A stretch of 64,000 nucleotides of DNA from Haliotis asinina (Eukaryota; Mollusca; Gastropoda; Lepetellida; Haliotidae), in contig NC_090287.1 in the NCBI RefSeq assembly GCF_037392515.1, positions 14,187,001 to 14,251,000 of the forward strand. Direction: 5' to 3'. The notes beneath the pieces were generated by a model. It was not told the origin of the DNA. It worked only from the letters and a program-made list of their open reading frames with translations, and did no database searches. Numbering within the stretch: position 1 is the first letter of the stretch; every line of letters starts with the position of its first letter. Positions 34,944-60,667 of the stretch are shown in pieces. The position numbers were made by a program, and so were the translations under genes.

Positions 34944-34960
34944 ATTGGATGCCTATATAA
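34944..34960 (+). promoter_or_regulatory. Inverted CCAAT plus TATA box for the 35.0-kb family gene
   Basis: ATTGG (34944-34948) and TATATAA (34954-34960) stand about 90 bp before the ATG, predicting a 5' UTR near 60 bp and no intron. The same combination of elements recurs upstream of other family members, at different spacing. Confidence 0.6.
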
Positions 34961-35044
34961 GTTAAACCGAATGTGCAAAAGGACAGACTGCTCAGATTAT
35001 AGAAGCTCTGAAGATCAAGATTCGCTAAGAAGACGACGAATACA

Positions 35045-35563
35045 ATGAATAATACACTTGCGAATGAGATTTCTGTCCAAATTGCTGACTTCCCTTTCAA
35101 ATGCCTACCCAAGCTGGTGGACTATTCCTTCCATGATGATAGCGATAGTGAAGAGATGGCTGCTGATCCGATGGAGCAACTCCAGACTGAGCTGACCGAG
35201 CTTCGTTCCATGCGTGCTCCGCTCTCAAGAGCATTTTCAGAAAGGTTCGCGTCTCGATCAGCCTTCAGTTGCAGGAACCTCATAGAGCGTGCCAGTATGA
35301 AATTAAAACTGGAAGAAACTAAAGAAACTTTGAGAAAGGAACGTCTCATGATTCAACTTAATGGTGCGCTGTCGACAACAGGTCTAGTATCTGGTTCAGA
35401 GAGACCATCCAAGAAGAAAAAAGAGGACATGAGGTCTGGGTTGGAGAGGTGGCTGTCCAAGAAAGGATGTCGCCTACTCCGAAGACAAGGATCTTTCGTA
35501 AAGACAGAAGATCAGAAGATGAAGTCCACGAGTTTTCTGAGATTCTTACAGAAGCGTTCCTGA
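35045..35563 (+). CDS. PKLVDYSF-family small protein, group II, intact
   Basis: An intronless gene for 172 residues. The signature PKLVDYSFHDDSDSEE is at 22-37. A PMEQLQTELTEL segment is at 42-53, a basic Ser/Arg stretch (RAFSERFASRSAF) at 62-74, and a charged amphipathic helix (RASMKLKLEETKETLRKER) at 82-100 followed by LMIQLNGAL. Basic patches follow: KKKK at 123-126, SKKGCRLLRRQ at 138-148 and the end LRFLQKRS. The acidic N-terminus, Lys/Arg clusters and absence of a signal peptide or membrane segment suggest a nuclear or nucleic-acid-associated protein, which is inference. TATA and CCAAT elements precede it and AATAAA lies at 35636-35641. Its closest relatives are the genes at 44.4 and 39.3 kb. 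I recognise no outside family. Confidence 0.8.
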   Translation: MNNTLANEISVQIADFPFKCLPKLVDYSFHDDSDSEEMAADPMEQLQTELTELRSMRAPLSRAFSERFASRSAFSCRNLIERASMKLKLEETKETLRKERLMIQLNGALSTTGLVSGSERPSKKKKEDMRSGLERWLSKKGCRLLRRQGSFVKTEDQKMKSTSFLRFLQKRS

Positions 35564-35641
35564 TCATAGACACTGTTATCAACTAATTGTTATATTTTGT
35601 ATGGTTGTGCTGCAAGGTTGTTTGTTATATTTTCAAATAAA

Positions 35642-36240
35642 CACACACATTAATGTTCAGATTTGTTGCTCTTTATTCACATCTATGCATGTTCATATAT
35701 ATATATTATTTTTACAAATGAGAACGTTTTGCCAGTGGAAAGTAAACAGCGAATGTACGGTAACATACGTATTTTAAAATGTATGCTATATCAAATTATT
35801 TGTTTTTTCAAAACTATTTAACCCTAGCTTGGCAATGACGTTAGAACTTGTGTCCATAAAAGTTGTCCTCGTTCTTCATGACCACTTGCTTGACAACGAC
35901 ATTAGAATCATACACTTGTGTCCTTGGAATTATAAGACTCTTTGCCTATGTCAACTGAATGATATTTTGCTGATAAACCTGGACCTTGTGCAGCGCATTA
36001 CATTTTTCGACCTTCCGTGTCCAATATTGAAATAGTTGACTTTGATACAGCAGAGCTTAGAAAAACATTCAGATCAAGTCTTGAATTGTCCAAAGTATTC
36101 ACCAAGCAGAAATCCAAGTCCATACTTTGTATGGCACGGTACCCTCCGTAAATGATATTGTGAAAATGAAAATTTAAGGAATCAGTTAAATGTCAGTGTG
36201 CATGAAAACATAACAATCTTAATGCACAAAATATAATATT
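35642..36240. other. Spacer downstream of the 35-kb gene
   Basis: AT-rich; a short internal near-repeat (ACGTTAGAACTTGTGTCC-like, about 60 bp apart) lies near 35840-35920. No gene was seen. Confidence 0.4.
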
Positions 36241-36267
36241 ACAATTATTTCGTAACAGCGCCATCGG

Positions 36268-36375
36268 TCACGAACGTTTCTTTAAGAATCTCAGAAGACT
36301 CGTGAACTTCATCTTCTGCTCTTCTGTCTTTACGGAGGATTCTCGCAATCGCCATCCTTACTTGGACAGCCACCA
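36268..36375 (-). pseudogene. 3' remnant of a PKLVDYSF-family gene (first)
   Basis: The minus strand reads RWLSK, a stop, then GWRLRESSVKTEEQKMKF, TSLLRFLKKRS and a stop. This matches the last 35 or so residues of the group II genes. The rest of the coding region is missing. The homology breaks after CCACCAAGAG and resumes with the CCAAT-side upstream sequence (GCTAATCAACA), so gene body, leader and TATA box were removed together. The copy at 44.2 kb has the same junction. Confidence 0.8.
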
Positions 36376-37374
36376 AGAGTTTTACGCTAATCAACATTTT
36401 ATCATGAATTAGTGCTAAATAAGAAAAGGGAAATGTTTCTCGGGCATCGGCACGTCTTTCTTTTTTGTGCACCTAAGCTTTTTTTATTGCCATTAAAAAA
36501 AATAATTTTGACTTTGCCGCGTCCCGATCACTCGTTTCTCCACTACAAGAGGGAGTGTCTGTAAGAACGAGTGTGACTGAATCTACAACTTATTAAACGT
36601 CCCAAGCTGTATTTCTGAGAGAAACAAAAGTATGAAGATGTGTTCCTCACTTTTTTCTGTCAAACATATTTTTAAGATGTCCTACCACCCACGTCCCTAC
36701 TACCCGAGAAACATTTAAAAATGTACCCGAGAAACATTTAATTGTTTATGCAGCCTAACATATTTTAACACTCTTCAATCCAGTGAGTAAACCTCATTAG
36801 GTGATCTACTGATCCTCTTTCCGGTTCCCTCCTTCGTTGTGTTTCTTTCAGAGTTTTGTTTGCGGATTAAATAGTATTAGTTAAACATTAAATAGTATTA
36901 GTTAAACATCGACTGATTTGATAAAGTAGATATTCGTTGAATTTTATAAAAAAAAAAAAAATCACATGTTCACAGTTTCATTTATCATAGAGATAAAAAA
37001 ACGTGTTAAGTAACTAAATAGCGTAGTAGTAAACAGTAGTAAAAGTATTTTGTGGACCGAAAAAATGTAATATCATATGCTGATCTTTGCATGGTAGGAT
37101 AATTGTGTAAACATTTGAAGTATACTCTTAGTATTGCTAAAATCACATAAGCAGTTTGATTAATCAACGTTCTTTGTCAGTTCAGTAACTCTTGCACTTC
37201 ATGAAACACAGATCAAGGGTAGAGTTGGAGAATAGATCAACTGTAAGATAACTTTTTTCCACTGCTTTTGTTGTGAAAGGAGACTTGTCATGACACAGCT
37301 ACAGATCGTGACTGGAATACACTTTATGTCATAATTTGTAATCCAGTTGGTCTTCCGAGCTTTGGCGCGTTTGC

Positions 37375-38230
37375 GGCCATATTCTATATGCCTTGCTATA
37401 TAATCGCATCTATCAATGTTTCTGTTTTCTTGTGTAATTATCACTCTGTAGTCATCAAAATTGTGAGCTTTACTCAATCTCACATAATTGCCCTGCCGTC
37501 TAGAGGCGGGATAATGTTTGTTTAAGACCTACCTCTCGAAGTAATTAGATTAAACGCATTAGATTGACACATATTAGAGAAAACTTCGTAAAAACGGTTA
37601 GTGGTTTCAATTCCGCTTGATCAAAGGTAGTGCGTGTTTTGATCTCTTTTAATGAAGTTCGCATCGTTTGTGGTCCCGTTGTTCCAGCAAATTATTAGTT
37701 TGGGCATTTACTGTTCTAAAGCAATGTTTGAGAACCCAGAGCTGCAGGTCTATATGGGACATGATCAGACCAATTCCTTAAAACACTGCGCGTATGGGTA
37801 TTTGCACATGTTCTATATTAAATTCTTAATAAAATTTAAATTTAAATTAAGTCAAAGTAAAAGTCCTCTAACGTAAAAAAATAAAGTTATTTTCGGGAGA
37901 GGACCGTGTATATACATAATCATAACATTCCCCACAGTCTGTAATAGTTAAATCTTAGAAGACATACACTTTCATAACGGTATATCGATTATGAACTATG
38001 CCTCTAAAATTGAAACCATATTCTTAAAAATGGTGTCTGTAATCGACATGAACGAACATTTACACCACTGACTTTTTAATACCATTACGAAATACATATT
38101 ACACACGTGATGATAAAAAACTGACAATTGTACAATTGTCTCTCGACAATTCGATAAATTATCCCCTAAAGAGGATTTTGTGTTGAAGGTCATCTGCATT
38201 ACCTGGCAGGAAGAAGAACCCGGTGAAAAT
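37375..38230. repeat. Third copy of the spacer found beside the group I genes
   Basis: TCTATATGCCTTGCTATA, TAATGTTTGTTTAAGACC and CAATTCCGCTTGATCAAAGG match 42985-43290 and 48088-48370 at lower identity. The stretch from about 38120 matches 43550-43670 and 49220-49340. This marks an older copy of the duplicated unit whose genes are mostly gone. Confidence 0.75.
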
Positions 38231-38519
38231 ATGTCATATTGCATTAAAATGTGACTGTACTTGATTAGAAATCAAGTTATGTGAAGTTATGTGTTAAGCG
38301 TTGTTGTATTTCAAGTACATTTCTCATTCACATTGCTGGTTGCACCCTGGTTACAGAAATATCAATATTACTAAGAAGGGTAGCAAAGGCACAATGTGTA
38401 CCTGATTCGCTACTGCTAATTCGTCTTCTTTGTTTGTATTGTAAGTGTTTTGGTTTATATTTAAACTGATTAAGCTGTGAAGTGTTTTTTAAAACGTGCG
38501 TAACTCAAGGTAAATCCTT

Positions 38520-38775
38520 GTACTAATATCACTGACAGGGGTGTCTCATTAAGTCACATAACTATAGACACGAAGTTCTATTATTATTGGTCTTTCCAAT
38601 CGCATCCAGTGTTTACCATCGTTGATCGAAGTTGAGAAAAATAACCCTTCGGTTCAGACATATTGGCCTTTCTAATGTCAGAAAAGTTTTCGATGTTGTT
38701 TATTTAAGCTGAACTGGTGGAACATTAGCTCCTTGAATTCATCTTATGTTATTTGAAAGCATTCTTTGACAGGGC
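38520..38775 (+). promoter_or_regulatory. Orphan upstream region of a lost family gene
   Basis: This stretch follows the upstream region of the 49.9-kb gene step by step: CACATAACTATAGACACG, ATTGGTCTTT, GAATTCATCTTATGTTATTT, GAAAGCATTCTTTGACA. Similarity ends about where the other copy reaches its coding region (38775). No coding sequence follows. The TATA box of the other copy is replaced by a weak TTATTTAAG. Confidence 0.7.
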
Positions 38776-39321
38776 ATCAAATGTTTGTAAGCTACTGATC
38801 CGGATCCACAAAGCATGCGACAATCGTAAGCCTATGGTAAAGTTTTGATTACTAGAGTTGTGATTTTCACCCTCAATACACTGTTCATCAAAACACTTGT
38901 ATATATAATATTAAAAAAACAGTTCTAAGACATGTGAATGTAAACCATGGCAAAGTGTGGAATTTCACCTATGTTTTCTGATATATGCAATGACAATGTC
39001 TCTAGGGAAAGGACATCGAAGGTTTTGTTGAACAACCTAGAGAAACTGAGATACATGATCATATTGTTAATGTCAATCAACAGCATATCTTTAACTAACA
39101 TATTGTAACACCGGTCCTTCAATCACAAAGAGTAAGCCTCATTACTTAATCTATATATTGATCTCCATTCCGGAGATCCCAAAATAGAACAAACACTCTG
39201 AAAACACAAAGAAGATAACATACCAATCATTTCATAACAGTGTCTATGATCAGGAACGTTTCTTTAAGAATCGCAGAACACTCGTCGATTTCATCTTCTG
39301 TTCTTCTGATTTCACTAAGGA

Positions 39322-39768
39322 TCATTGTCTTCGGAGAAGGCGACATCCTTTCTTGGATAGCCACCTCTCCAACGCAGAGCTAATGTCCTCGTTTTTCTTC
39401 TTGGATGATCTCTCTGAGCTACACCCTTGACCTGTTGTAGACAGTGCTCCTTTAAGCTGAATCAAAAGGCGCTCCTTTCTCAAAGTTTCTTCGGTTTCTT
39501 CCAGTTTTAGTTTCAAACTGGCACGATGTGCCATGTTCCTACGACTAAATGCTGATCGAGAAACGAACCTCTCTGAAAATGCTCTTGAAAATGGTGTACG
39601 CATGGAACGAAGGTGAGACTGAAGTTCTTCCATTGGATCAGCAGCTATGCAATCTGCCCTGTCTTCGTCTTCACTGTCCTCATGAATGGAATAGTCTACA
39701 AGTTTAGGTGAAGCAATGCATTTTAAGGCTGTTGATTGGTTAAAATCTCTTTGTAGTGAATAATCCAT
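39322..39768 (-). pseudogene. PKLVDYSF-family group II copy, truncated and lacking its promoter
   Basis: The frame of 148 residues begins MDYSLQRDFNQ and has PKLVDYSIHEDSEDEDRAD. It ends at CRLLRRQ because a TGA replaces the GGA codon found in the near-identical gene at 44.4 kb. About 34 C-terminal residues are therefore untranslated, though still readable downstream. The sequence upstream of the start jumps directly to spacer DNA that in copy 2 lies beyond the TATA and CCAAT boxes, so the promoter was deleted. Both changes suggest a dead duplicate, although a short product from another promoter cannot be ruled out. Confidence 0.8.
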
Positions 39769-39784
39769 AATATGTATAATTTAT

Positions 39785-41170
39785 AATTGTATAAACATCA
39801 AGAGTTCACACTTTCATTTCTGATACAGATCAAAGGGCATGTGTTCATTAATTAACTAAATAGTGTAAAACGTTGAATGTTATACAGATACATGACTTTG
39901 GGGAAAAACACACTTTGTGTTACGACACCTGCAACATATCTATTTTTATCAGCTGGAACAAAATGAATATTTAACAATACGATTCCTGGAACACCAACGT
40001 AGGCCTTGGTATACTGTTGTATATTTCAAGGCCATAACTGAATTTATGAGAGAGAACCAGTCTATGCAAACTCACCTTTACATATCTGCACATTATATTC
40101 TATTTCATTTTGCAAGGGTATTATGGCTGTTTTGCCATCACACTAAGGGCTAGGTTAGAAATCCAAAATGATGGCAATATTCATTTCCTTTTCTCATACC
40201 ACGTAGTGTCTTAACTATTGCCACAATCATCGCAAATTCACATACATCGTAATTACGCCTGTGTTTTATTTCCAACATACCATATCAATAATTTATATCA
40301 TTGCACTCATGACCAGCACGTAAATTACTTGTCATAAAAATCCAAGTAAATTAATGAGATAAAGCCAAATTTGTGTTTATATTCTACCCAGCCTGTTCAT
40401 GTTAGCCTTGTGAGCACTACCAACGCATGTACCATATGTTCTTAGACCAAAGTAGCATCTCCTTGCTGCGACATATGAGGCACCAAAAAGATTAAAATAG
40501 ATGCTCAAAATGTCAATGGCTCAATCCTGACTCGAGAAGTCCCTGACCGCCGACATACAGTTGGAATAATATAGAGTGGGGACTCACTCAAACAGATATA
40601 CATACGAGTTGGATGAGGACACAAAGTGGTTGATAGAATTAAACAAAGAGTTCATATTTAAGAAATACACATTTTTGGTTTTGCTGAAGAAACAGCTGAT
40701 GAACAATGGACCCGAATATATTCGACTTTAGATGGTGAGTGAAAGATTTTATGAATGTCGCCTTCTGTGATATGTGTTCCCTTGTATGTAACAAATATAC
40801 AAGCTTGATAGATAAAGGTTATTCTTCAATATCGACAATGTCGCAGATGCAATGCTCTCTTTCATACAATTTGCAACATGGCCAAATACCTGAATATGGC
40901 TATGAATGGCAAGTCTGTAGGGATGGTCAACGACGCTTGTCATTCCTGTCACTTGCAACTCGCAGAATGCCTTTCAAACAGCCGAATATTACAGGTAGTT
41001 CACTGACATGACATTCATAAGGTTGTGTCCAAGGTGGTTAATAACAGCTAAGTGTATTGTGTATGTGTTGAGTTTGTCACGTAGATCCAGTTATCAGGTA
41101 TGTTTGCAACAGCAATAATTTCCCGAGTTCATAATCTTAAAACTACATGTATACTATTGCTCTTGAAGAT
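39785..41170. other. Spacer within duplication copy 1
   Basis: This matches about 45308-46650 in copy 2. Short frames occur in both copies (for example one containing FCDMCSLVCNKYTSL) but change length between them and have no conserved start or family match, so I do not call genes. Confidence 0.5.
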
Positions 41171-41990
41171 TTGCGAATTCATGAAAACATTTAATTTTGT
41201 TCGCATTAATTAGAATATAAACAGAGTGGCAACCTGATGTGAGACAGTTCTAAGACTTTTACTTCTTTAATGAAGCCTATGTCCATAGGTATAGCGCGAA
41301 CTAACTTACAACCATATTGGGGATTCCAACACTGGTATATAACTTTCTGGCATGTCTAAGGGATGCATTGTCTGCTCTACGAATTGGGGTGTCTAAAACA
41401 ACTGAATTTCCTTCCCCCATATATAATGTCCACTCTGAATCCAGATTCTGTCAGATTATTCATTCGCGCCTGAGGCTCGGTTGCAGTGATTTAAACGCAC
41501 ACAAATATGAACGATATTTATCTTCAAATCCGTCTTGTTCTTGTGACTACTCTTACGAAGATCCAATTCACTATTTCTTTTCGTGCATAAAGTACTCTGA
41601 CATAAGACATAAAATGCACTTCTATACCGAAGGGTATGATATCAAATCAATACTATACGGACACTCTAATTGATCTGCTAACGATAATCATGAATTATTA
41701 GAATCTATCCACTCTTTCATTGTACTCTTAGGCAGATTTGTGTTGTAATAGTAAAATGAAATTGCACCTCCGACACTAATGATCTTAATGTTATAAGTGG
41801 CTATGTTATCAAGTTTTGATTTTACATTCTCAGAAAGCTATTGTTTGTTGTTTGATATTTGCATGCTTTTCTCCTCACGACTGCTTTATATAAGTTACTT
41901 GTACCCCACTAGCGGTATTAACAAAAGCAATATATTGCTTGTTTACCAATGCAATTCCCCTTCTGGAAATAAATATGTTTAAACCATTAT
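41170..41990 (+). mobile_element. LINE (non-LTR) 3' end, copy 1
   Basis: The frame at 41317-41673 contains FCQIIHSRLRLGCSDLNAHK and SCSCDYSYEDPIHYFFSC, the C-terminal Cys/His region of a LINE ORF2. It is followed by a 3' UTR ending near GGAAATAAATATG. It is 5'-truncated and stops in frame before the expected end. It was present before the segmental duplication, since a shortened version lies in copy 2. Confidence 0.7.
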
Positions 41991-42345
41991 ATCCACATAG
42001 CTAACTCTGATACACAAACTTTATCATTGATTGTGACGCATAGTGGTGTAAGAATATACAAAATTGTTATATTGGAAAAGCATCGCCCATAATAGTGAGG
42101 GGTCTTCTTATGATAATGTAATCCAAATTACAGAATGATCATGTGGAGCACTGAATGCATTGTATCCACGACACAGGTCAATCACTCCAGAAACTGCCAT
42201 CACATGTGAACAAAATAGGTAGAAATGACTCTCTGTTTGTAACTTTGATGTTTATTTCTAAATGCAACAAATAACGATATTTCATAACATCATATCAGAT
42301 AACATTATAACAACCATGAACGGTAACAAATAACATCATCTGTGA

Positions 42346-42879
42346 TCACGACCGTTTCTTCAGGAACGTCAAGATGCAACTGGGCCTAGTTTTCTGTTCG
42401 TCTGTCTTCACTGTCCGTCGCTGTCTTCGGAGAACGCGGTATCTGTTCCTGGTCAACAATCTTTCTACTAAAGAGGTCATGTCAAGTTTTCTCTTCTTTG
42501 CTGGTCTCTCGGAGTTATAAACCCGACGTGATGCCGACAGTGCGTCATTAAGCTGCGTCATGAGAAGCTCGTTTCTGAAGGTTTCTTCTGTTTCTTCTAA
42601 CTTCAGATTCAGATTGGCACGTTGTCTCAGATTGAACTGTTTTCGACACGTGAACCTTTCTAATGATGGAGCAGCCAGTGAAGTCAGTTGAGATCGTAGT
42701 TCTTCAATAGGACCACCATGTATGACACCCTCACTTTCTTCATCATTATCATCACTATCATCGTGAAACGAATAGTCCACAAGCTTAGGAAGAAAGTTGA
42801 AGTCAGGACTTGTACTGAAACTAGTTTTACCAAACGAAACATCACTGCTCACATATATAATGTCTGATTCTCTCTTCAT
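42346..42879 (-). CDS. PKLVDYSF-family small protein, group I, intact
   Basis: An intronless gene for 177 residues. I start at the ATG of MKRESDIIYVSSD, because this N-terminus is shared with the gene at 49.9 kb and the longer open frame begins only with GTG. LPKLVDYSFHDDSDD is at 31-45, then an acidic run. A charged helix (RANLNLKLEETEETFRNE) lies near 87-104, then LLMTQLNDALS. PAKKRKL at 126-132 closely resembles a classical monopartite nuclear localisation signal. The protein ends TFLKKRS. AATAAA lies about 90 bp after the stop (complement of 42251-42256). It is nearly identical to the gene at 47.4 kb and is part of the tandem duplication. Function is unknown. Confidence 0.82.
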   Translation of the reverse strand: MKRESDIIYVSSDVSFGKTSFSTSPDFNFLPKLVDYSFHDDSDDNDEESEGVIHGGPIEELRSQLTSLAAPSLERFTCRKQFNLRQRANLNLKLEETEETFRNELLMTQLNDALSASRRVYNSERPAKKRKLDMTSLVERLLTRNRYRVLRRQRRTVKTDEQKTRPSCILTFLKKRS

Positions 42880-42959
42880 TCTGACTGTTTGAGTCCTCTC
42901 AGTACAAGTTCCAATCTTCTCTATGTTACACACCTACATGCAGTTGGTTGTGACGGCCA

Positions 42960-43860
42960 CTGCTGTAGTGAGGCTTATTAAGTATTCTATATGCCTTGCT
43001 CTAAAATCACATCTATCAATGTTTGTATTTTCATGAGAATTGAAACACACGGATATAGCACTCTGTAGTCATCAGTAGTGTGAGCTGTACTCCGTGTGCA
43101 ATCGCACATAATTGCCCTCTTGTCTAGAGGCGCGATAATGTTTGTTTAAGACCTACCTCCCGTAATAATTAGCTTAAAACAACACTTTGACTTACCTACC
43201 AGGTACACATCTTAGAGAAGTCTTTGTAAATACGTAAGGTGGTTAGTATTCAATTCCGCTTGATCAAAGGTAGTATGTGTTTTTATCTCTTTTAATTAAG
43301 TAAATACTGTTTGTATCCCCTCGTTGATCAGGCAACCTATTAGTTTGTGCATTTGTAAGCAATGTTTGTGAACCCGGAGCTGCAGGGCATCAGCATGGGG
43401 TTTGATAACAACAATCCATGAAACACTGCGTGTATGTGTATTTGTAGAAGTATAATATTAATTTATTTCAACGTAAATCGAAGTAAACTAACATTTATAC
43501 AATTAATTTTACTACAATCGTCATTATCAAAAATATGAAAAACGACATTTGTACAATTGTCTCATGAAATATTGGATACATTGTCCTCTAAAGAAGATTT
43601 TGTGTTGAAGGTCATGCCCCAGGATTACTTGCATTATACCTAGCAGGAAGAACAGGTTTCAAGCATCTGTAAACAAAAACCTGCATGTATAATCAGGAGG
43701 ACATGTGTACATAAGGCTTGTTAAAAACGTTAGCCTATGTTGTCTAATGTGTGCAATACCAATGTGTTTGGGGAAGAGGACATCGAAAGTTGAACATGTT
43801 GAGATACATCATGAGCATTTGTTTAAAACCGACCACAGTCTCAAGCAGACTGTTCCTAAA
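42960..43860. other. Spacer upstream of the group I gene, copy 1
   Basis: It holds the duplicated spacer to about 43490, then sequence related to 38120-38230 and 49220-49370. The plus-strand partner gene present beside copy 2 (at 49.9 kb) is missing here. Confidence 0.6.
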
Positions 43861-44158: not shown

Positions 44159-44265
44159 TCACAAAAGTTTCTTTAAGAATCCCAGAAGACTAGCCGACTT
44201 CATCTCTCTGATCTTCTCTCTTTACGGAAGATCTTTGCTTTCGACATCCTTTCTTGGACAGCCAC
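44159..44265 (-). pseudogene. 3' remnant of a PKLVDYSF-family gene (second)
   Basis: The minus strand reads WLSKKGCRKQRSSVKREDQ, then in another frame EMKSASLLGFLKKLL and a stop, so the C-terminal end is present but shifted. It is followed by CCACCAAGAGCTTTAAGCCAATCAACA, the same joint to upstream sequence as in the remnant at 36.3 kb. AATAAA (complement of 44096-44101) lies just downstream. Confidence 0.8.
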
Positions 44266-44447
44266 CAAGAGCTTTAAGCCAATCAACAGTTTCTCTTTCA
44301 CTAACATATTGTAATACCCTTCAATCACAAAGAGTAAACCTCATTAGTTTATCTATTGGTCTCCATTCCGGAGACCCCAAAATAGAACAAACACTCTGAA
44401 AACACAAAGAAACTAACATACCAATCATTTCATAACAGTGTCTATGA

Positions 44448-44978
44448 TCAGGAACGTTTCTTTAAGAATCTCAGAACACTCGTCGATTTCATCGTCTGTT
44501 CTTCTGATTTCACAAAAGATCCTTGTCTTCGGAGAAGGCGACATCCTTTCTTGGACAGCCACCTTTCCAACGCAGAGCCAATGTCCTCGCTTTTCTTCTT
44601 GGATGATCTCTCTGAGCTACACCCTTGACCTGTTGTAGACAGTGCTCCTTTAAGCTGAATCAAAAGGCGCTCCTTTCTCAAAGTTTCTTCGGTTTCTTCC
44701 AGTTTTAGTTTCAAACTGGCACGATGTGCCATGTTTCTACGACTAAATGCTGATCGAGAAACGAACCTCTCAGAAAATGCTCTTGAAAGTGGTGTACGCA
44801 TGGAACGAAGGTGAGACTGAAGTTCTTCCATTGGATCAGCAGCTATGCAATCTGCCCTCTCTTCGTCTTCACTGTCTTCATGGATGGAATAGTCTACAAG
44901 TTTAGGTGAAACGTTGCATTTTAAGGCTACTGGTTGGTTAAAATATCTATGTAGTGAATAATCCATAACTCCAAACAT
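44448..44978 (-). CDS. PKLVDYSF-family small protein, group II, intact
   Basis: An intronless gene of 176 residues from the ATG of MFGVMDYSLH; a second ATG four codons later is possible. The longer open frame starts only with GTG. It has SPKLVDYSIHEDSEDEERAD, PMEELQSHL, SRAFSERFVSRSAFSRRN, the helix HRASLKLKLEETEETLRKER, and the basic end SKKGCRLLRRQ through LRFLKKRS. The former nuclear-signal position reads SSKKKSED. It differs from the broken copy at 39.3 kb at few positions, so it shows what that copy lost. TTATATAA lies at 45078-45085 and an inverted CCAAT (complement of 45117-45121) lies further up. Cellular role is unknown. Confidence 0.82.
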   Translation of the reverse strand: MFGVMDYSLHRYFNQPVALKCNVSPKLVDYSIHEDSEDEERADCIAADPMEELQSHLRSMRTPLSRAFSERFVSRSAFSRRNMAHRASLKLKLEETEETLRKERLLIQLKGALSTTGQGCSSERSSKKKSEDIGSALERWLSKKGCRLLRRQGSFVKSEEQTMKSTSVLRFLKKRS

Positions 44979-45077
44979 ATCCCAATGCTCCACTGTTATG
45001 ATGGTTCCTAGACTATCGCACGTTCCCCGATTTCCGAAATCTAGATCTCAGTGACTGACGAGGGATGTGGGTTCTGG

Positions 45078-45185
45078 TTATATAACGGCAAGAGAGTCAG
45101 TGTTTCGAAATTCACGCCAATCAATCGTTTCTATCTTTAACTAACACCCTTCAATCACAAAGTGCAAAGCTCATTAAGTTGTCTA
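45078..45185 (-). promoter_or_regulatory. Promoter of the 44.4-kb gene with a family-wide upstream block
   Basis: A TTATATAA box (45078-45085) lies about 100 bp before the ATG. On the plus strand CCAAT (45117-45121) is followed by AATCAATCGTTTCTATCTTT and CTTCAATCACAAAG. Versions of this block, CTTCAATCACAAAGAGTAAG and CCTCATTA, also stand at about 39115, 44310 and 36775. Conservation across several copies suggests a shared control region, or simply common descent. Confidence 0.55.
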
Positions 45186-45307
45186 TTGATTATCATTTCT
45201 ATTCTCTCCATGGGAGGTGTGTTGGTTTATGGCGAGGTGCTTTAATTTAATTAATATAAGTTCAAAACATCATTTAACTTCATTAAGTAGATAATCAGTC
45301 GTCTCTG

Positions 45308-46640
45308 TATAAACATCAAGAGTTCACACTTTCATTTCTGATACAGATCAAAGGGCATATGTTCATTAATTAACTAACTAGTGTAGAACGTTGAATGTTA
45401 TACAGATACATGACTTTGGGAAAAAACACACTTTGTGTTACGAACCTGCAACATATCTATTTTTATCAGCTGGAACAAAATGAATATTTAACAATACGAT
45501 TCCTGCAACACCAACGTAGGCCTTGGTATACTGTTGTATATTTCAAGGCCATAACCGAATTTATGAGAGAGAACCAGTCTATGCAAACTCACCTTTACAT
45601 ATTTGCACATTATATTCTATTTCATTTTGCAAGGGTATTGTGGCTGTTTTGCCATCACACTAAGGACTAGGTTAGAAATCCTAAATGATGGCAATATTCA
45701 TCTCCTTTTATCATACTACGAAGTGTATTAACTATTGCCACAATCATCGTAAAATCACACTCACCGTAATTACTCCTGTGTTTTATTTCCAACATACCAT
45801 ATCAATAATTTATAGCATTGCACTCATCACCAGCACGTAAATTACTTGTAATAAAAATGCAAGTAAATTAATGAAATAGCGCAAATTTTGTGTTTATATT
45901 CTACCCAGCTTGTTCCATGTTAGCCTTGAGAGCACTACCAACGCATGTACCATATGTTCCTAGGCCAAAGTAGAATCTCCTTGCTGCGACATATGAGGCA
46001 CCAAACAAATTAAACTAGATGCTCAAAATGTCAATGACAGTTGGAATAATATAGAGTGGGGAGTCACTCAAACAGATATACATGCGATTTGGATGAGGAC
46101 ACAAAGGGGTTGATAGAATTACACAAAGGGTTCATATTTAAGAAATACACATTTTTGGTTTTGCTGAAGAAACAGCTGATGAACAATGGACCCGAATATA
46201 TCCGACTGTAGATGGTGAGTGAAAGATTTTATGAATGTCGCCTTCTGTGATATGTGTTCCCTTGTATGTAACAAATATACAAGCTTGATAGATAAAGATT
46301 ATTCTTCAATATCGGGAATGTCGCAGATGCAATGCTCTCTTTCATACAATTTGCAACATGGCCAAATACCTGAATATGACTATAAATGGCAAGTCTACAG
46401 GGGGATTTTCAACGACGCTTGTCATTCCCATCACTTGCAACTCGCAGAATGCCTTTCAAACAGCCGAATATTGCAGGTCGTTCACTGACATGACATTCAT
46501 AAGGTTGTTTTCAAATGGTTAATAACAGCTAAGTGTATTGTGTATGTGTTGAGTTTGTCAGTACCCGTTGATCCAATTATCAGGTATGTTTGCAACAGCA
46601 ATAATTTCCCGAGTTCATAATCTTAAAACTACATGTATAC
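45308..46640. other. Spacer within duplication copy 2
   Basis: Counterpart of 39785-41170, with no supported gene. Confidence 0.5.
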
Positions 46641-46644
46641 TATT

Positions 46645-47095: not shown

Positions 47096-47448
47096 CCACA
47101 TAGCTAACTCTGATACACAAACTTTATCATTGATTGTGACGCATAGTGGTGTAAGAATATATAAAATTGTTATATTGGCAAAGCAACACCCATAATAGTG
47201 AGGGGTCTTCTTATGATAATGTAATCCAAATTACAGAATGATCATGTGGAGCACTGAATGCATTGTATCCACGACACAGGTCAATCACTCCAGAAACTGC
47301 CATCACATGTGAACAAAAAAGGTAGAAATGACTCTCTGTTTGTAACTTTGATGTTTATTTCTAAATGCAACAAATAACGATATTTCATAACATCATATCA
47401 GATAACATTATAACAACCATGAACGGTAACAAATAACATCATCTGTGA

Positions 47449-47982
47449 TCACGACCGTTTCTTCAGGAACGTCAAGATGCAACTGGGCCTAGTTTTCTGT
47501 TCGTCTGTCTTCACTGTCCGTCGCTGTCTTCGGAGAACGCGGTATCTGTTCCTGGTCAACAATCTTTCTACTAAAGAGGTCATGTCAAGTTTTCTCTTCT
47601 TTGCTGGTCTCTCGGAGTTATAAACCCGACGTGATGCCGACAGTGCGTCATTAAGCTGCGTCATGAGAAGCTCGTTTCTGAAGGTTTCTTCTGTTTCTTC
47701 TAACTTCAGATTCAGATTGGCACGTTGTCTCAGATTGAACTGTTTTCGACACGTGAACCTTTCTAATGATGGAGCAGCCAGTGAAGTCAGTTGAGATCGT
47801 AGTTCTTCTATAGGACCACCATGTATGACACCCTCACATTCTTCATCATTATCATCACTATCATCGTGAAACGAATAGTCCACAAGCTTAGGAAGAAAGT
47901 TGAAGTCAGGACTTGTACTGAAACTAGTTTTACCAACCGAAACATCACTGCTCACATATATAATGTCTGATTCTCTCTTCAT
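47449..47982 (-). CDS. PKLVDYSF-family small protein, group I, intact (duplicate)
   Basis: The product of 177 residues differs from the 42.3-kb gene at very few positions (for example SVGKT for SFGKT and NDEECEG for NDEESEG), so both reading frames have survived since a recent duplication. All group I landmarks are kept: MKRESDIIYV start, LPKLVDYSFHDD, the LNLKLEETEETF helix, PAKKRKL and the FLKKRS end. AATAAA is at the complement of 47354-47359. It is divergent to the gene at 49.9 kb, about 2 kb away, and the degenerate copies suggest that this head-to-head pair was once the basic unit. The start was chosen as for its twin. Confidence 0.82.
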   Translation of the reverse strand: MKRESDIIYVSSDVSVGKTSFSTSPDFNFLPKLVDYSFHDDSDDNDEECEGVIHGGPIEELRSQLTSLAAPSLERFTCRKQFNLRQRANLNLKLEETEETFRNELLMTQLNDALSASRRVYNSERPAKKRKLDMTSLVERLLTRNRYRVLRRQRRTVKTDEQKTRPSCILTFLKKRS

Positions 47983-48039: not shown

Positions 48040-49820
48040 CATGCAGTTGGTTGTGACGGCCACTGCTGTAGTGAGGCTTATTAAGTATTCTATATGCCTT
48101 GCTCTAAAATCACATCTATCAATGTTTGTGTTTTCGTGGGAATTAAAACTCACGGATATAGCACTCTGTAGTCATCAATAGTGTGAGCTGTACACCGTGT
48201 TCAATCGCACATAATTGCCCTGTTGTTTAGAGGCGTGATGATGTTTGTTTAAGACCTACCTCCCGTAATAATTAGCTTAAAACAACACTTTGACTCACCT
48301 ACCAGGTACACATCTTAGAGAAGTCTTTGTAAATACGTAAGGTGGTTAGTATTCAATTCCGCTTGATCAAAGGTAGTATTTTTTCATCTCTTTTAATTAA
48401 GTAAATACTGTTTGTATCCCCTCGTTGATCAGGCAACCTATTAGTTTGTGTATTTGTAAGCAATGTTTGTGAATCCAGAGCTGCAGGGCATCAACATGGG
48501 ATTTGATAAGAACAATCCATTAAACACTGTGTGTATGTGTATTTGCAGAAGTATAATATTAATTTATTTCAACGTAAAGAACAACGAATTGATTTTCAGG
48601 AAACATAGTGTGTCTTGACATAACTTTTTGCATTACAAATCTGCACATTTCTTGCCTAATAACTATGTGTCTAAATTGGAAGTTATTTTTTAAACTGCTC
48701 ATGACTTGTGCTGTAATAGCAAGTAATGCATACATTGTACCACTTTGTTTTAAATGCAATCATTATTATAATTTATACATTACACACGTGGTGATAATGA
48801 ATCACATATTTCCCCAAAGTACTTCAGTTCTGAATAAACAAGTCTGTTTGATAATGACTAAGTCTTAAATGTTGGATTTATGTGGTTGCTATTGATGGGT
48901 TACACATAACATGTGTATGTGTTTGTTACCATTTCATAACATTTTTTCAGTATAGGCTATTAAAAAAAGTCGGAGATGTTCTATTTTGCGAGAATACCAC
49001 TAGCCAATGCATATATGAAATATATACATACAGATGAAACATTTCCATAGGAATGGAATAAATTTTTACCTTTACCCTTAATTTCTTTTCATCTTTTATA
49101 TCCTCCTTGGCGTCATTTTCATTTCATCAATGTTATAAATCAAATATCCCCTACTTTTGGCATGGTACAGTTACGGTGTCTTCGCTATACCCGTGATATT
49201 AACCTGTTAGACCAAGGTGACGATTGTACAATTTCCCCTTGAAATATTACTTCATATATCCCTTGAAGAAGAACACCCACCCACACATTTGCGTTGAAGG
49301 TCATGTGCAAGGCTTGCTCGCATTATCTAGCAGGGTGAACAGGTTTCAACTTAAACAAGAACCGAGAGAGGGTATATAACTTGCTGTCATGTTCTGTTAG
49401 GCTGTATCTGGACTTGATTAGAAAGCAAGTTACGTAAAGTGTGTACAGTGGTCTGTATTCAATAAATTTCGCATTCAAATTTCTTGTTGCACCCTTATAT
49501 AAACAGGGTTTTTTCAGTTCATGCAACAAATGATCACACCGAAAATAGAAACTTCAATCCTTCCATTAAAATGAAGTATGTGAAATATTTCTAAATAACA
49601 AGCTTCAGGGTAGCAAATATACACCAGCTATTGTCACATTTTCTTCTTTCTTGCTTGTATTTAAAGTGTTTTTGTTTTTATTTAAGGTAATGTAGTCATG
49701 AAGTGCTTTTCAAAATATGCCGTAACTCAATGTAAGTCCTTGTGCTAATATCAGTAAGTAGCAGGGGTCACTCAATTAGTTGGACTCACATCACGTGACT
49801 ATAGACACGCCGGTCTAATC
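48040..49820. other. Shared upstream region between divergent group I genes
   Basis: About 1.9 kb separate the minus-strand gene at 47.4 kb and the plus-strand gene at 49.9 kb. Pieces match the degenerate unit at 37.4-38.8 kb in the same order. No gene is seen inside. Confidence 0.6.
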
Positions 49821-49947: not shown

Positions 49948-50529
49948 ATGAAACGGTGTTCCGATATTGTCTACGTGGCCAGTGACAACCCTGATCTCAA
50001 AACCAAGTTCACCCTCAAACCGAACTTCAACTTTTATCACCAGTCTATCCCGAAGCTTGTGGACTACTCATTCCACGATGACAGTGAAGATGAAGATGAC
50101 GGTCGTGGTCGCAGTTCCGACGCAGTAGAGGATCTTCACTCTGAGCTCACAGCATTGGTATGTCGGCTGTCAAACACTACCCGCGCAATTCCGGTTGAAC
50201 GAGACGTCGCACGCCAGGCATTCAGTTCCAGGAACCTTCGAGAAAGGGCTAGTCTAAAACTGAAACTGGAGGAAGATGAAGAGAAAGTGAGGAAAGAGCG
50301 GGTTATGACGCAACTAAATGACGCATTGTCGGAGACCCGTCAAATATGTGACTCTCAAAGACCAACAAAGAAGAGAAAGGTGGACATGAGTTCTGTGTGG
50401 GAAAGACTCATTTCCAGAAAGAGTTATCGTCTGCTCCGAGGTCAAGGATCACCTCGTCTGAAGAGGAAAACTGAAGACAGTGGGATCAAACCAAGAAGTT
50501 TGCTGGGACTGTTGAAAAAACACAAGTAA
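49948..50529 (+). CDS. PKLVDYSF-family small protein, group I, diverged intact member
   Basis: An intronless gene of 193 residues starting MKRCSDIVYVASD, aligned with the group I N-terminus; an upstream in-frame TTG was not used. SIPKLVDYSFHDDSEDEDD lies near 33-51, VEDLHSELTAL near 60-70, the charged helix RASLKLKLEEDEEKVRKER at 100-118 and MTQLNDALS after it. PTKKRKV at 139-145 is almost the SV40-type nuclear signal and is the clearest localisation hint in the family. The end is KPRSLLGLLKKHK. AATAAA is at 50617-50622. It has several extra residues relative to the minus-strand twins and is clearly older than their duplication. No outside homologue is recognised. Confidence 0.82.
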   Translation: MKRCSDIVYVASDNPDLKTKFTLKPNFNFYHQSIPKLVDYSFHDDSEDEDDGRGRSSDAVEDLHSELTALVCRLSNTTRAIPVERDVARQAFSSRNLRERASLKLKLEEDEEKVRKERVMTQLNDALSETRQICDSQRPTKKRKVDMSSVWERLISRKSYRLLRGQGSPRLKRKTEDSGIKPRSLLGLLKKHK

Positions 50530-50639: not shown

Positions 50640-52660
50640 AGACTGGTTTTTTTTCTGTCTCTACCCTTATCTAAGAGAAATCATAATTTACTCCCTTCGT
50701 GAACTTGCATCACCTGGATGAAACTGTATTATTTATAAATCCTATACCGGTCATCTAGATCCAAATGTATGGAAGCGCTGTACTCCTTCCGTACATTTAT
50801 AATGTATAGATAACCGCCCCTGTTGACATACACCGACAAATATAGCATTTTGTATACCTGCATTCCCGTGCATAATCTCTACAGGCAGCCATAACAGACG
50901 GGATAGGATCTGCCATATTTTGGAGCATGACAGCTGCTATATGGTTACAGCTGGAAATGTTTACCTACCTCTTAATAACCATAACTGTCCTATTTATATT
51001 CACACCAAAGCCCATACTCAGATCTACAGCTTCTTTTATTCCCGATGTCTTAAGTCCCATTTTTTTAGAGATGTAGTATCTCTGGGTACAGAATTAAGGA
51101 TTGTCTTTCTTCTTTTCAGTGCCACATTTCGGGGCAGATGGCTCTGAAGTAGAAAGTACTTGTGTACGTACTGAAACATAGTACTCACGTGTACCCTGTA
51201 TTAATTTCTATCATGGCGTGTTATCCAACTTGAAAGAAAGTTGTGACTTCGATGAAACATATCTACCGATCACAGACACTGCACGGGTGTCATATAGTCG
51301 TCATGATATTTGTAATTAATATAACATGAGTATTTAGGATGATGCACATGTTCGTTTATATAAGCAAATATGCAAAAGGTATACTACATCGCAAACGTCT
51401 ATTAGGTTCTCGCGACAACAGAAGCGAAAACATGTGTTCTGTATGTCCTTTGGTAAATAAACTCATACCATCACTCAAGTCGGAATATTAAAATTAACTC
51501 TGCTGTAGGACCAGGAGTAGGACTTTGTCGCTTTTGGTTCCTTCAATTTCTGTCACTGTTTACGAAAGCATTGACATTACGTAAATACCAAGGTCAAACA
51601 GTGATGTCATGTATGTAAAGAAACGTTGATATGATCATGGTTCGAGTCCTAAGGGCAGATCAGCTTTACTAGTTACGGACTACGAACATCGCGAATAAAC
51701 ATCGACAGTCCTATGGTATTCGTCACAGCGCTATATATCGAACATGGAGGTTGACAACATTTACTCTTACTGTTTGGGGTTTTTTTGTATTGTTTTTTTT
51801 TTTTTTTTTTTTAATTTCAAAAATCTTGCGTCCGTAGAAATAACGGCATGGAAAGGACACTAACATTGAACAGTTCGCACTATCAAACTATTTCTTATCA
51901 GACTTGAATGTCTGTTTGATGGTCGTAATCTGCGAGGACGTCAAATTCATTATAATGAATTATGTAATAACTATGTATTATAATCTTATATCACACTCAG
52001 CAGTGCCGTTGTTACAGTAGAGCTTCTACAAAGTGTCAATACTTGCTAGAGAAGATAGTGGCAATACTGGCTAGGGGAACTGATCTGCAGTTATAATCCC
52101 TCTTCAGCCCCAGGCTTGATCAAGCTAAGCCTGACCATGTAATGTCGACTCTTAAAAGAACATGAGCTGTATTTATTTTTCTGATTATTGCTCAACGGTG
52201 GTACATCAGTAGGGTAAGTCCCATGGTAAATATTTTGATAGTGATGCCTTATACCTAGGAAAGTAACGTTAATAGACTCCCACGATCACCAAGTGGCTTT
52301 TAATCGCTGTAGAAATGGAAAGGACTACTGGTAACCAGTTTATCTCGTTTCGGCAGGATTTTCTCTGATTCGGTTCAACGCCCTTGGACTGAATGAGTTG
52401 AACTCATTGTTTCTTTTCATGTGTCGTTTCTAATGCCAGCAGCACGAATAGAATTATTTTCAGGGACAGACCATTGTAGCTCCCCAAAACTACACACCGA
52501 GCTTTGATAATAAATATTTGCTCATTGCCGCATGATTAATGTTGATCTATAATCAACGGCCAAAATAGTATCGGATACACCCTCCTTAAACACATGGTCA
52601 TGTTTTAATGACGAAAGCTCAAGTCCGTAATATACACGAAAGTGGAAAACAGATTTAGAG
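50640..52660. other. Intergenic, no gene seen
   Basis: AT-rich spacer with a poly-T run near 51790-51815. Short frames lack support. Confidence 0.4.
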
Positions 52661-52665
52661 TTTGT

Positions 52666-53545
52666 CGACACAATCTACCGACTTCCAGTGTCCTTCTGTG
52701 TAAAGTCTTCCAGGCTTGATCCGTCACATACCCCAGCGTTTTTAATCGTCAGAAACCGTATCAAAAGATGTCCTCATGTTTTGTGCCGTGACGGAACAAT
52801 ACCAGCATCTCCTGGTCGTTATAGATGCCCTTGTGTATGATTTTCTATTTTGACGTGTTCTGTCGACATGACTGTTAAGGGGTAGGGGGTAGCCTAGCGG
52901 ATAAAGCGTTCGTTCGTCACGCTGAAATACTTGGCCGGTATTGTGACTGAGCTGAAGTCAGGCGGGCAGTGTCTCAAACATGTCGTGACAAATGTGCGAA
53001 ATAGCCACTGGTAAAAATCCAGCCGGGCCAGTAAATGTCCCTACAATCATTTTTGGTTAAGTGGCGTATATGTGGGCTAGTAACTTTCAGGCATGGCTAG
53101 CATGACTCGATAGCAAAATGTGGAAACTATTTGACCAAGCAGATAGAAGTTGACCATAGTCTCAAATAGACCAAGCAGACAGAGAGTGAGTTCAGTTTTG
53201 CACCGCGTTCAGCAATGTCGCGGCGGGAGACACCAGAAGTCCGCTCCACATTTTGTACCCATGTTCTGAATCGAGCCAAGTATTTCAGCGTGACGAACGA
53301 ACGCTTTAACCACTAGGCTACCCTCTGCTAATTAACAGCCATGTCGACAAAGCACGTCAAAATAGGAAATCATACACAAGGGCATCTATAACGACAAGCA
53401 GATGCTTGTGTTGTTCCGTCACGGCACAAAACACGAGGTCTTCTTTTGATGCGGTATCTGACGACTAAAAACGCCGGGGTATCTGACGGGTCAAGCCTGG
53501 AAGACTTTACAAAGATGGCTAGTGGAAGTCAGTAGATTGTGTCGA
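52666..53545. repeat. Foldback structure with tRNA-like sequence at the inner arm ends
   Basis: Arms of about 270 bp (52666-52935 and 53274-53545) are reverse complements with scattered differences; the spacer is about 340 bp. Pairs include GACACAATCTAC with GTAGATTGTGTC and CACAAGGGCATCTATAACGA with its complement. Near the inner end of each arm lies a tRNA-like piece (TAGCCTAGCGG at 52890-52900, complement near 53315). The spacer contains a fragment of the abalone-type SINE (about 53187-53235). It may be a foldback DNA transposon or an inverted duplication. Confidence 0.85.
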
Positions 53546-53650
53546 GATCCGTTAGTTCTCGTTCCCCACCCCGGGCGAGTCTGTACTGTCTTTTCATAGT
53601 CACTTTCTACTGAAGAGAGGAATTCAGGCACAGGGAAGTCATGCGAGTAT

Positions 53651-53890
53651 AGAGGGAGTGAGTTTAGCTTTATGCCGCAGTTAGCAATGTTCCCGCAATA
53701 TAACGGCGGTGTGTAAATAATCGAGTCTGGACCAGTCAATCCAGTGATTGACAGCATGAGCATCGATCTACTTGACTAGAACACAATGACATGCGTTTAC
53801 CAAATCAGCGTGTCTGACCATCCAGTCCCGCTGCCTTTTTTGACAAGCATGGATACATGAAGATCAGTTTTAATCCGGACCTCCACCGGA
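53651..53890 (-). repeat. Abalone-type SINE-like repeat, diverged
   Basis: GAGTGAGTTTAGCTTTATGC starts the copy, and CGAGTCTGGACCAGTCAATC and CCAGTCCCGCTGCC follow. The flanks share ATGCGAGTA (about 53641 and 53893), a short target duplication. More mutated than the 14.7- and 59-kb copies. Confidence 0.8.
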
Positions 53891-54026: not shown

Positions 54027-54867
54027 TACAGGCAAACTGTAGCGCAAGTGGGGTAACTGTAGCGCTAGTGTAGAGGATATGACCAGAATATGACCAGTAT
54101 TCATATATGCGAGCGAAGCGAGAAAAGGTTGGCAACGCACTTCCCCCGCTTCGGTTAAAAAAATATTGTTCATGTCAAAACAAAATATCGCCACCATCAA
54201 AGGTACACTCCAGTTTCCTCACTAGGTTGTGCTCTCAGATTTCCAACGCCATATTTAATAATTACTCACGTGAAATATGTTTTATTCAACATTTTAAGCG
54301 CAGCTCGTGGTACATCAGACCGTTCTTCGTCTCCATTACCCCTGTCAGCTTTCGGTTCAAAGTAGTGAAGGGACAAGTTATTATTCCTTATGGAATACAT
54401 AAAGAGTTACCTCCCATGCTTGGTACGCTCACTGCGCCAGAATAAACAATAACGCCGACACTTAAGACAAATACAATCCAACAGAATCATAATAAAAATT
54501 GGCAGTATGGTATATCTTATCTTATTTCTGCTTATTCTTGTTCCTTCACTCCGTTCAACCTGAAGCTGGCAGGGGTAATGGAGGCGAAGAACGATCTGAA
54601 TACCACGAGCGGCGTTCAAAATGTTGAATAAAACATATTTCACGTGAGTAATTATTAAACATGGGATAGGAAATGTGAGAGCACAGCCGAGTGAGGCAAC
54701 GGGAGTGTACCTTTGATGGTGGCGATATTTTATTTTGACATGAAAAATACTTTTTGAACCGAAGCGAGGGAAGTACGTTGCAAACCTTTGCTCGCTTCGC
54801 TCGCATATATGAAGGCTGGTCATTTTCTCTACGCTGCGCAAACACATTTGCACTACAGTTTGCCTGT
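54027..54867. repeat. Second foldback element
   Basis: The left arm (54027-54379) and right arm (54534-54867) are inverted copies of about 340 bp with moderate divergence; the loop is about 155 bp. Matching pairs include GCAAACTGTAGCGCAAGTG with CACATTTGCACTACAGTTTGC, and TCACGTGAAATATGTTTTAT with its complement. The repeated GCGAGCGAAGCGAG box stands near the outer ends. No coding capacity is seen, so it is a likely non-autonomous DNA transposon. Confidence 0.85.
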
Positions 54868-57700: not shown

Positions 57701-57719
57701 TTATAAAGAATACATGTTT

Positions 57720-58910: not shown

Positions 58911-58977
58911 GCATGGTCCACTGCATCATATTGATGATATGTTGACACGCTTCCGAGAGTGGGAGCTGTGCATAGTT

Positions 58978-59244
58978 GAGTGAGTGAGTTAAGTTTTACG
59001 CCACACTCAGCAATATTCCAGCTATATGGCGTCGATCTGTAAACACTCGAGTCTAGACCAGACAATCCAGTGACCAACACCATGAGCATCGATCTGTGCA
59101 ATTGGGAACCGATGACATGTGTCAACCAGGTCAGCGAGCCTGCCCACCCGATCCCGTTAGTCGCCTCTTACGAAACGCACATTCGTAGTTTTATGGCAAG
59201 CATGGGTTGCTGAAGGTTTATTCTACCTAGGGACCTTACGGGTA
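58978..59244 (-). repeat. Abalone-type SINE-like repeat, full length, with 12-bp target duplication
   Basis: It runs from GAGTGAGTGAGTTAAG to GGACCTTACGGGTA. Perfect direct repeats CTGTGCATAGTT flank it at 58966-58977 and 59245-59256. This copy best defines both ends of the family. Confidence 0.92.
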
Positions 59245-59256
59245 CTGTGCATAGTT

Positions 59257-60170
59257 ACCTCCCTTTGTTTCTAGGATGTGCGGATCAGAGATAGGATTTG
59301 TACTATTTTCACCTTGTTTGAAATATCTTACTTGAATTGAATGCAGCTACTTGCAGCTACATTTAAACTACTTGTAAATGATATACGTTAGCTCACGTTT
59401 ACTTATACATTGTTTCAAAACGTCAGACGAATAAAGACGTTGTTTATCCATAAAATTGTCTTTATCTGACTCGCCAACTGGTCACTCAAAAGGTCATAAA
59501 CCCTCCAGTTTCCAACGTTATACTTTGCTGTACTTGGCACAGGTCTAATTAATGGAGTATAAAGTTTCAACTGAAAACTTAATGCTGTTACAAAAGAATC
59601 ACGATAGATAATACACAACTTACTAAAGCCTTTTTTTTCGTTCCACGAAAAGAACCTACTGATAAATATAGCACATCCTCGTGGATAGTGTTAAAAGAAA
59701 GACGACTTGTTACTTCTATTATTATGAATGCGAACCAAAAGCAACACACACGGGTGAATGTTTCCACGTACACTTCAACTAATAGCCTTGTGCATGTTGA
59801 ATTTTAGTTAAAATTCTATTGACGGTAAAGATCAATACTCCCTCCTCATTAATGATAATCTTCTCTTAACACAAACACTGACTGCTTTAATGTTTACTCA
59901 AGGACTTACTCCACCTAATTAACCATTTAAGCGTACGATACTGTTTTAACCTAATTAACCCCCACATGAAAGCAAACATTCCCAGGTCACAACAGTGGGG
60001 TAATGAAGCGTTCAAATATAGTCCCCAGTTAAGCCAAGCCATTGTTCAAACAAACAGTCGTTAAGATTGTTGAAGGCCAAGCACACACACAAATACAAGA
60101 ACAAGGCCCGAGCTGCGGAGCGCCGAGGGCAAGCGCTTGTGACGTGATAGGTGGTTGGATAACGGATTAT
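59257..60170. other. Intergenic, upstream of the 60.3-kb gene
   Basis: AT-rich, no gene seen. TGACGTGA at 60140-60147 resembles a CRE half site 40 bp before the TATA box of the next gene. Confidence 0.4.
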
Positions 60171-60180
60171 TCGAACTCGA

Positions 60181-60186
60181 TATATA
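60181..60186 (+). promoter_or_regulatory. TATA box for the 60.3-kb family gene
   Basis: TATATA lies 80 bp before the ATG, predicting a leader of about 55 bp without introns, as in the other family members. Confidence 0.5.
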
Positions 60187-60265
60187 CACCAACTCTTCAT
60201 ACCAGTGCTTCACAGTTTAGCTTTGGATCTGAACCACGTAGACATACAAGAAACACCTGTGAAAG

Positions 60266-60667
60266 ATGAGGCCCCAGTCTTCTTCATCCGACCTTTGCTA
60301 CAGTGCTCCTCACAGGCTCGTTGAATACTCCTTTGACAACGACAGTACCTGTGATGATTATCCAAGTCGTAGTTCCAGCCCTGTCGAGGAGCTCCACCTA
60401 GAACTCAGCGCCCTGATGGGGCTGGTAGCGCCAAGGTATCAGTGTTCATCTGTCTCTGGTGATATACAGAAACGCGTTAGCTTGAAACTTCAAGCTGAAG
60501 AAGAGGAGGAAGATCGCAGAAAGGAACGCCTGATGACTCAACTGAAGAACACATTGTGTGGTCCAGCTGGTGCTGCTGAATGTAAAGTGCAGGGGAAGAC
60601 GAAGAAAGCGGATATCGGATCTCTGCTTGGGAAAATGAAGAGGAAATTTATTTCCAAGAAGGGTTGA
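60266..60667 (+). CDS. PKLVDYSF-family distant member, intact
   Basis: An intronless gene of 133 residues starting MRPQSSSSDLCYSAP. The signature is altered but clear: HRLVEYSFDNDSTCDDY at 16-32, then SPVEELHLELSALMGL. The helix reads KRVSLKLQAEEEEEDRRKER and continues LMTQLKNTL. The C-terminus is short and basic (KTKKADIGSLLGKMKRKFISKKG). Because the same three blocks are conserved in order across such divergence, they are likely the functional core: acidic LV(D/E)YSF motif, charged helix, basic tail. It lies 10 kb from the main cluster, beyond the foldback elements. No clear AATAAA was found close by. Function is unknown. Confidence 0.75.
   Translation: MRPQSSSSDLCYSAPHRLVEYSFDNDSTCDDYPSRSSSPVEELHLELSALMGLVAPRYQCSSVSGDIQKRVSLKLQAEEEEEDRRKERLMTQLKNTLCGPAGAAECKVQGKTKKADIGSLLGKMKRKFISKKG

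Follow-up and report, generated by a model that had tools for sequence, protein, structure and literature searches.

Identity of the gene cluster

What are the short, related open reading frames found in one part of a 64,000-nucleotide stretch of Haliotis asinina DNA (contig NC_090287.1, positions 14,187,001 to 14,251,000 of the forward strand; hereafter the window), and what might their products do? A mechanical listing of open reading frames (ORFs) gave seven related ORFs of 133-193 amino acids (aa) spread across 35045-60667 in window coordinates, which are used throughout. We named the family members by start coordinate as g35, g39, g42, g44, g47, g49 and g60. The analysis showed that they form a tandemly duplicated family of small protein-coding genes, of which copies have been gained and lost. 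The original prediction, made from the DNA letters, had counted six intact genes, and these six are present together with a seventh, broken one (g39). When all seven products were searched against the window by tblastn (E <=0.01), family relatives were confined to 35.0-60.8 kb and comprised the seven genes and two 3'-end fragments (Table 1). Introns are taken as absent because the reading frames stay open, and the cluster genes are thus apparently single-exon.

The seven products align with their blocks in one order and share 23 invariant columns; the products of g39 and g60 end before the C-terminal part of this alignment. For a shuffle test we used the five distinct members (g35, g42, g44, g49 and g60) and left out the near-copies g39 and g47. 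All ten pairwise comparisons scored above each of their 300 shuffles, with Z values of 16.5-67 overall and of 16.5-24.7 for g60 against the four other distinct members. The claimed common block order is therefore borne out, with similarity far above that of shuffled sequences, and the genes are a homologous family. The most conserved windows in five members were the LVDYS motif, with a mean identity of 0.74 between pairs, and a charged helix (0.59-0.67). The two signatures originally proposed, LVDYSFHDDS and MTQLNDAL, hold as conserved, aligned blocks but not as fixed strings. The acidic motif occurs in variants, PKLVDYSFHDDS in four of the seven members, PKLVDYSIHEDS in two and RLVEYSFDNDS in one, and MTQLNDAL is literal in only three, its place being taken by LIQLKGAL in two members and by MIQLNGAL and MTQLKNTL in one each. 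A KKRK patch was found in three of the seven.

Selection on the proteins

The ratio of nonsynonymous to synonymous divergence (dN/dS) was calculated by the Nei-Gojobori method for 21 pairs, in which g39 was counted with 23 codons beyond its stop. Eight non-recent pairs with measurable divergence (dS 0.62-1.39) had dN/dS values of 0.25-0.34, and in the eleven pairs involving g49 or g60 the synonymous sites were saturated with dN just 0.36-0.65. The ratio was 0.40 for the recent pair g39/g44, and 0.58, from three changes only, for the recent pair g42/g47. Since synonymous similarity has been lost and protein similarity kept, selection acts on the protein. The results demonstrated that the family proteins are under purifying selection.

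The broken member g39 has an in-frame stop followed by 23 further homologous codons, and homology runs to 39253. Its alignment with g44 stops by the start codon and restarts after 337 nucleotides (nt) in g44 versus 17 nt in g39; thus, g39 lacks the stretch in which g44 has its TATA box. With a premature stop and the promoter segment gone, g39 is read as a pseudogene.

Growth of the cluster

Two tandem duplicate blocks, 39074-43477 and 44280-48578, are 92-97% identical across the three main pieces of their alignment. The g47-g49 intergenic region also survives in a third and older copy, a relic (Table 1) that aligns with 48086-48568 at 73% over 493 columns and with the g49 promoter and leader at 72% over 192 columns and, in the leader, at 90% over 49 columns. 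No clear family gene was found on either flank of this relic, where the best match of a low-threshold tblastn search was a 35-aa piece (E 0.032). The region of the second 3'-end fragment also matched g35 DNA by blastn (74% over 197 columns, E 1e-30). Taken together, these results show that the cluster has expanded through segmental DNA duplication plus gene loss. Retrotransposition is disfavoured as the origin of the recent copies, and a retrocopy origin was ruled out for them, since the flanks were duplicated together with the genes; this argument does not extend to the family's first gene.

Table 1. Genes and gene remnants of the cluster, in window coordinates
Feature	Position	Strand	Remarks
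g35	35045..35563	+	172 aa, intact; open frame; TATA -91; inverted CCAAT -101; AATAAA 72 nt past stop
3'-end fragment of a lost copy	36271..36372	-	tblastn to g35: 68% over 37 aa, E 4e-8
g47-g49 intergenic relic	37380..38771	not assigned	nucleotide alignment to g47-g49 intergenic DNA
g39, broken copy	39322..39768	-	premature stop; promoter segment of near-copy g44 absent
g42	42346..42879	-	177 aa, intact; AATAAA +89; no strict TATA
second 3'-end fragment of a lost copy, just 3' of g44	44168..44264	-	tblastn pieces, E 9e-4 and 0.002
g44	44448..44978	-	176 aa, intact; TATA -106; inverted CCAAT -143
g47	47449..47982	-	177 aa; 175/177 residues same as g42; AATAAA +89; no strict TATA
g49	49948..50529	+	193 aa, intact; divergent to g47; inverted CCAAT -125; TATA -89; AATAAA +87
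g60	60266..60667	+	133 aa; most divergent member; C terminus shorter

Directly after the g60 stop lie 59 in-frame, stop-free codons (60668-60844, + strand) of basic composition with an acidic stretch at the end. A stop-free run of this kind is expected by chance at about 4%. The likeness of these codons to the paralogue C termini is weak; in four comparisons, without correction, the fraction of shuffles equalling it was 0.010, 0.028, 0.033 and 0.43. The stretch may reflect truncation of g60, read-through or chance.

Predicted anatomy of the proteins

Two AlphaFold runs, for g49 and g44, were built on the same seven sequences. In both models the N terminus and the acidic motif are of low confidence, a first helix follows (residues 59-78 in g49 and 49-77 in g44), and then comes a long charged helix at 84-135 in g49, where the predicted local distance difference test (pLDDT) score is 94-96 over 101-120, and at 80-116 in g44, with a pLDDT of 94 over 91-110. 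After the long helix comes a shorter one within the basic region, followed by a very short C-terminal helix. The charged helix of the original prediction is thus recovered with confidence in both runs.

Charge is divided between the two ends in all seven members, with a net charge of -6 to -9 in the 25-aa acidic motif and of +5 to +16 over the 60 C-terminal residues. A K-K/R-x-K/R basic patch, the pattern of a monopartite nuclear localization signal (NLS), was found in four of the seven. The spacing Phi-x2-Phi-x3-Phi-x2-Phi occurs once per protein and at the same aligned place in all seven. We rejected this export-signal spacing as stand-alone evidence because it is common in shuffled sequences and also fits a plain amphipathic helix. 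The safest statement is that these are small helical proteins with charge-segregated ends, made from duplicated genes under selection.

Promoters and 3' signals

A strict TATAWAW lies 86-106 nt before the ATG in four of the seven genes (g35, g44, g49 and g60); in g60 it is on the opposite strand, the gene's own strand having only a looser TATATA. In the broken g39, a TATA match 17 nt upstream of the ATG was not counted. When the five distinct promoters were scanned from -250 to -1 with TATA allowed on either strand, four of them contained TATAWAW, which none of 300 simulated sets equalled (simulated mean 0.9). Among the other motifs scanned, loose TATA alone surpassed chance, and half sites of the cAMP response element (CRE) were present in three of the five promoters, which is chance level.

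It had been proposed that most copies carry a TATA box and an inverted CCAAT near the ATG, with an AATAAA nearby. The TATA part stands for the four genes above, but an inverted CCAAT upstream of the TATA box is limited to three of the seven (g35, g44 and g49); that of g42 and g47 sits 36 nt from the ATG and was not counted, and CCAAT itself showed no enrichment over the simulated sets (fraction 0.117). As for AATAAA, it lies within 100 nt of the stop in four of the seven (72-89 nt past it in g35, g42, g47 and g49) but 346 nt away in g44, and none was found within 600 nt of the stop in g39 and g60.

Searches for relatives

No family member scored above the curated cut-off in Pfam-A, whether we searched with the seven proteins or with a hand-made consensus and its pieces. 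Three of the seven proteins had one sub-threshold match each (E 0.018-0.2, three different families), two of the five consensus and piece queries had sub-threshold matches as well (E 0.006-1.2), and all of these were rejected as compositional. An NCBIfam hmmscan matched none of the seven proteins, and PHROGs gave nothing significant (one of the seven at E 0.39). A profile of all seven found no PDB sequence up to E 10, and a Foldseek search of the g49 model against PDB gave nothing below E 5 (best E 5.3). Two PDB candidates were set aside as compositional: ABCC2, the best match of g49 alone (E 0.23), and a designed repeat protein with a whole-chain E of 2e-4 and an i-E above 1000 for every stretch. 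No relative was found when contig collections were scanned, two scans being of viral and two of prokaryotic (GTDB) contigs.

The claim that the proteins hold no known domain is thus upheld for these libraries, with none at cut-off in Pfam and NCBIfam and none significant in PHROGs and PDB, but its standing is limited to them. Pfam and PDB reach animals only where a family is curated or a structure solved. The family is therefore not a curated domain, and it may well sit in animal proteome databases as 'uncharacterized protein'. A possible likeness of LVDYSFHDDS to the pocket-protein-binding peptides of E2F was considered; phmmer of this block against PDB chains of at least 20 residues listed no E2F. 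Literature searches on the signature strings gave no matching family, and neither did the listed titles and abstract openings of papers on intronless or lineage-specific mollusc families.

Possible role and rival explanations

The blocks suggest a sequence of steps through which the proteins could act. The acidic-aromatic motif (LVDYSFHDDS plus acidic residues), in its low-confidence stretch, would bind one partner, and a second partner would dock on the long helix at its conserved charged face. The basic C-terminal patch would take the protein into the nucleus, and the amphipathic helix has a leucine spacing that also fits a nuclear export signal. Expression from the compact, partly TATA-driven genes may be quick and short-lived or stage-specific, in the embryo or on demand. 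We tentatively propose, on the strength of these sequence patterns, that the family encodes small nucleus-directed adaptor or co-regulator proteins, whose partners, nuclear location and timing we infer.

Several observations weigh against this proposal. The predicted template modelling score (pTM) is 0.24 in both AlphaFold runs, so no global fold is predicted, and the long helix, judged by eye, does not follow a clean coiled-coil heptad pattern. The patch that the original prediction likened to a nuclear signal is missing as an NLS pattern from three of the seven members. The export-signal spacing turns up in 19-52% of shuffles per protein, and therefore just its fixed position counts as evidence. 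At the promoters, g42 and g47 have no strict TATA, and the consensus sites for the heat-shock element (HSE), NF-kB, AP-1, CArG, the interferon-stimulated response element (ISRE), the gamma-activated site (GAS) and the full CRE were found in none of the five distinct promoters (-250 to -1); this absence is mild evidence only, because chance alone would place each site in 0.01 to 0.35 promoters. Finally, no shared 8-, 10- or 12-mer exceeded shuffles between -220 and -1 (same strand only, 12 Markov shuffles per word length). A TGTGATTT-like promoter motif noticed by eye was likewise not above Markov shuffles, three of twelve equalling it for 8-mers.

Gene compactness is tied to both immediate-early and early zygotic genes, and both are therefore kept as rivals. 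According to PMC4654234, genes that are short and have few introns lend themselves to fast expression in both settings, and the first transcribed genes are reported as short, often intronless and tending to be evolutionarily young. It is rather unlikely, though not far-fetched, that the cluster holds early zygotic or germ-line genes, which would be compact due to very short embryonic cycles, young, fast-duplicating and not stress- or signal-induced. The short, apparently single-exon clustered genes, the enriched TATA and the absence of the tested stress motifs agree with this, as do the reported shortness, lack of introns and youth of first transcribed genes. However, the same review describes immediate-early genes with a similar architecture, short with few introns, and finds that gene shortness by itself does not predict early expression (PMC4654234). 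That the cluster is an immediate-early family induced by stress or infection, as first suggested, appears unlikely. The compact genes, the TATA enrichment, the inverted CCAAT in three of the seven and the AATAAA close to the stop in four of the seven would fit induction, but the empty scan for inducible sites in the five proximal promoters speaks against it, mildly in view of the low chance expectation. Of the resemblance to rapidly inducible genes, only the compactness and the TATA box are left, with neither a tested inducible site nor a common motif behind them.

We consider it improbable, to about the same degree as stress induction, that the family is a divergent branch of a characterised animal family beyond the reach of the searched libraries, for example a coiled-coil cytoplasmic adaptor. 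Several of the weak Pfam matches point to coiled-coil or adaptor proteins (DASH_Dam1 at E 0.018 and BLOC1S3 at 0.2 with single members; ATG16 at 0.006-0.009 and DUF4709 at 0.0087 with the hand-made consensus). However, these matches are mutually inconsistent, below the curated cut-offs and mostly on charged parts, as compositional matches would be, and the seven-member profile had drawn nothing from PDB up to E 10.

Returning to nucleus-directed adaptors, the fuller proposal is an undescribed, lineage-restricted animal family with its own motif-plus-helix module, supplying rapidly made nuclear adaptors from a cluster in which amplification and loss continue; as a whole it is doubtful. If the family is indeed lineage-restricted and nuclear, it would be a young gene family that supplies new regulators to old nuclear machinery. 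The conserved blocks provide a ready profile for locating the family elsewhere. Animal genomes, however, commonly contain clusters of lineage-specific, uncharacterised genes, and pending expression and distribution the present one is for now one more of them.

Other features of the window

The window has an animal-like appearance, with Pfam matches for four of ten other frames scanned (Tc1-type transposase, THAP, HtrL_YibB and fucosyltransferase). Beside the cluster are an HtrL_YibB-like frame at 28510-29448 (+ strand, E 2e-13) and a C-terminal piece of fucosyltransferase family 10 at 32013-32447 (+ strand, E 6e-13). A 402-codon open frame with Tc1/Tc3-type transposase domains and no internal stop is at 10668-11873 (- strand). 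A dispersed repeat, perhaps a mobile-element fragment, occurs on both strands at 14690-14917, 21724-21914, 23831-24093, 53652-53848 and 58977-59243, the listed pairs being 74-91% alike. Two inverted repeats have arms of about 290 nt: at 52644-53566 the arms are 86% complementary around a 339-nt spacer, and at 54085-54828 they are 88% alike with overlapping ORFs inside. The frame at 63336-63785 (- strand) starts, as judged by eye, like an EF-hand and continues into a long QGYQQPPP repeat, with no Pfam match at 0.01.

Comparison with known systems

IER2 and SERTAD are intronless regulators. Like them and like genes of the FOS and MYC type, the cluster encodes small proteins, and some of these carry a basic patch of nuclear type. 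Immediate-early genes of the FOS and MYC type are also short and compact, as in this cluster (PMC4654234). In contrast, Pfam finds no domain of these kinds in the family here, and the tested promoter consensus sites of immediate-early genes are absent from its five distinct promoters.

Canonical histone clusters resemble the present one in architecture only, as clustered short genes without evident introns, whereas the family here has an AATAAA within 100 nt in four of the seven genes and unrelated proteins. The histone stem-loop is an Rfam family, and no Rfam family, the histone stem-loop included, reached the gathering score within the window. Expanded mollusc families such as the inhibitors of apoptosis (IAPs; PMC8917759, in which the word 'intronless' occurs 16 times, and PMC7831173) have gene-family expansion in common with the cluster, whose proteins are of an unrelated kind and yielded no Pfam domain.

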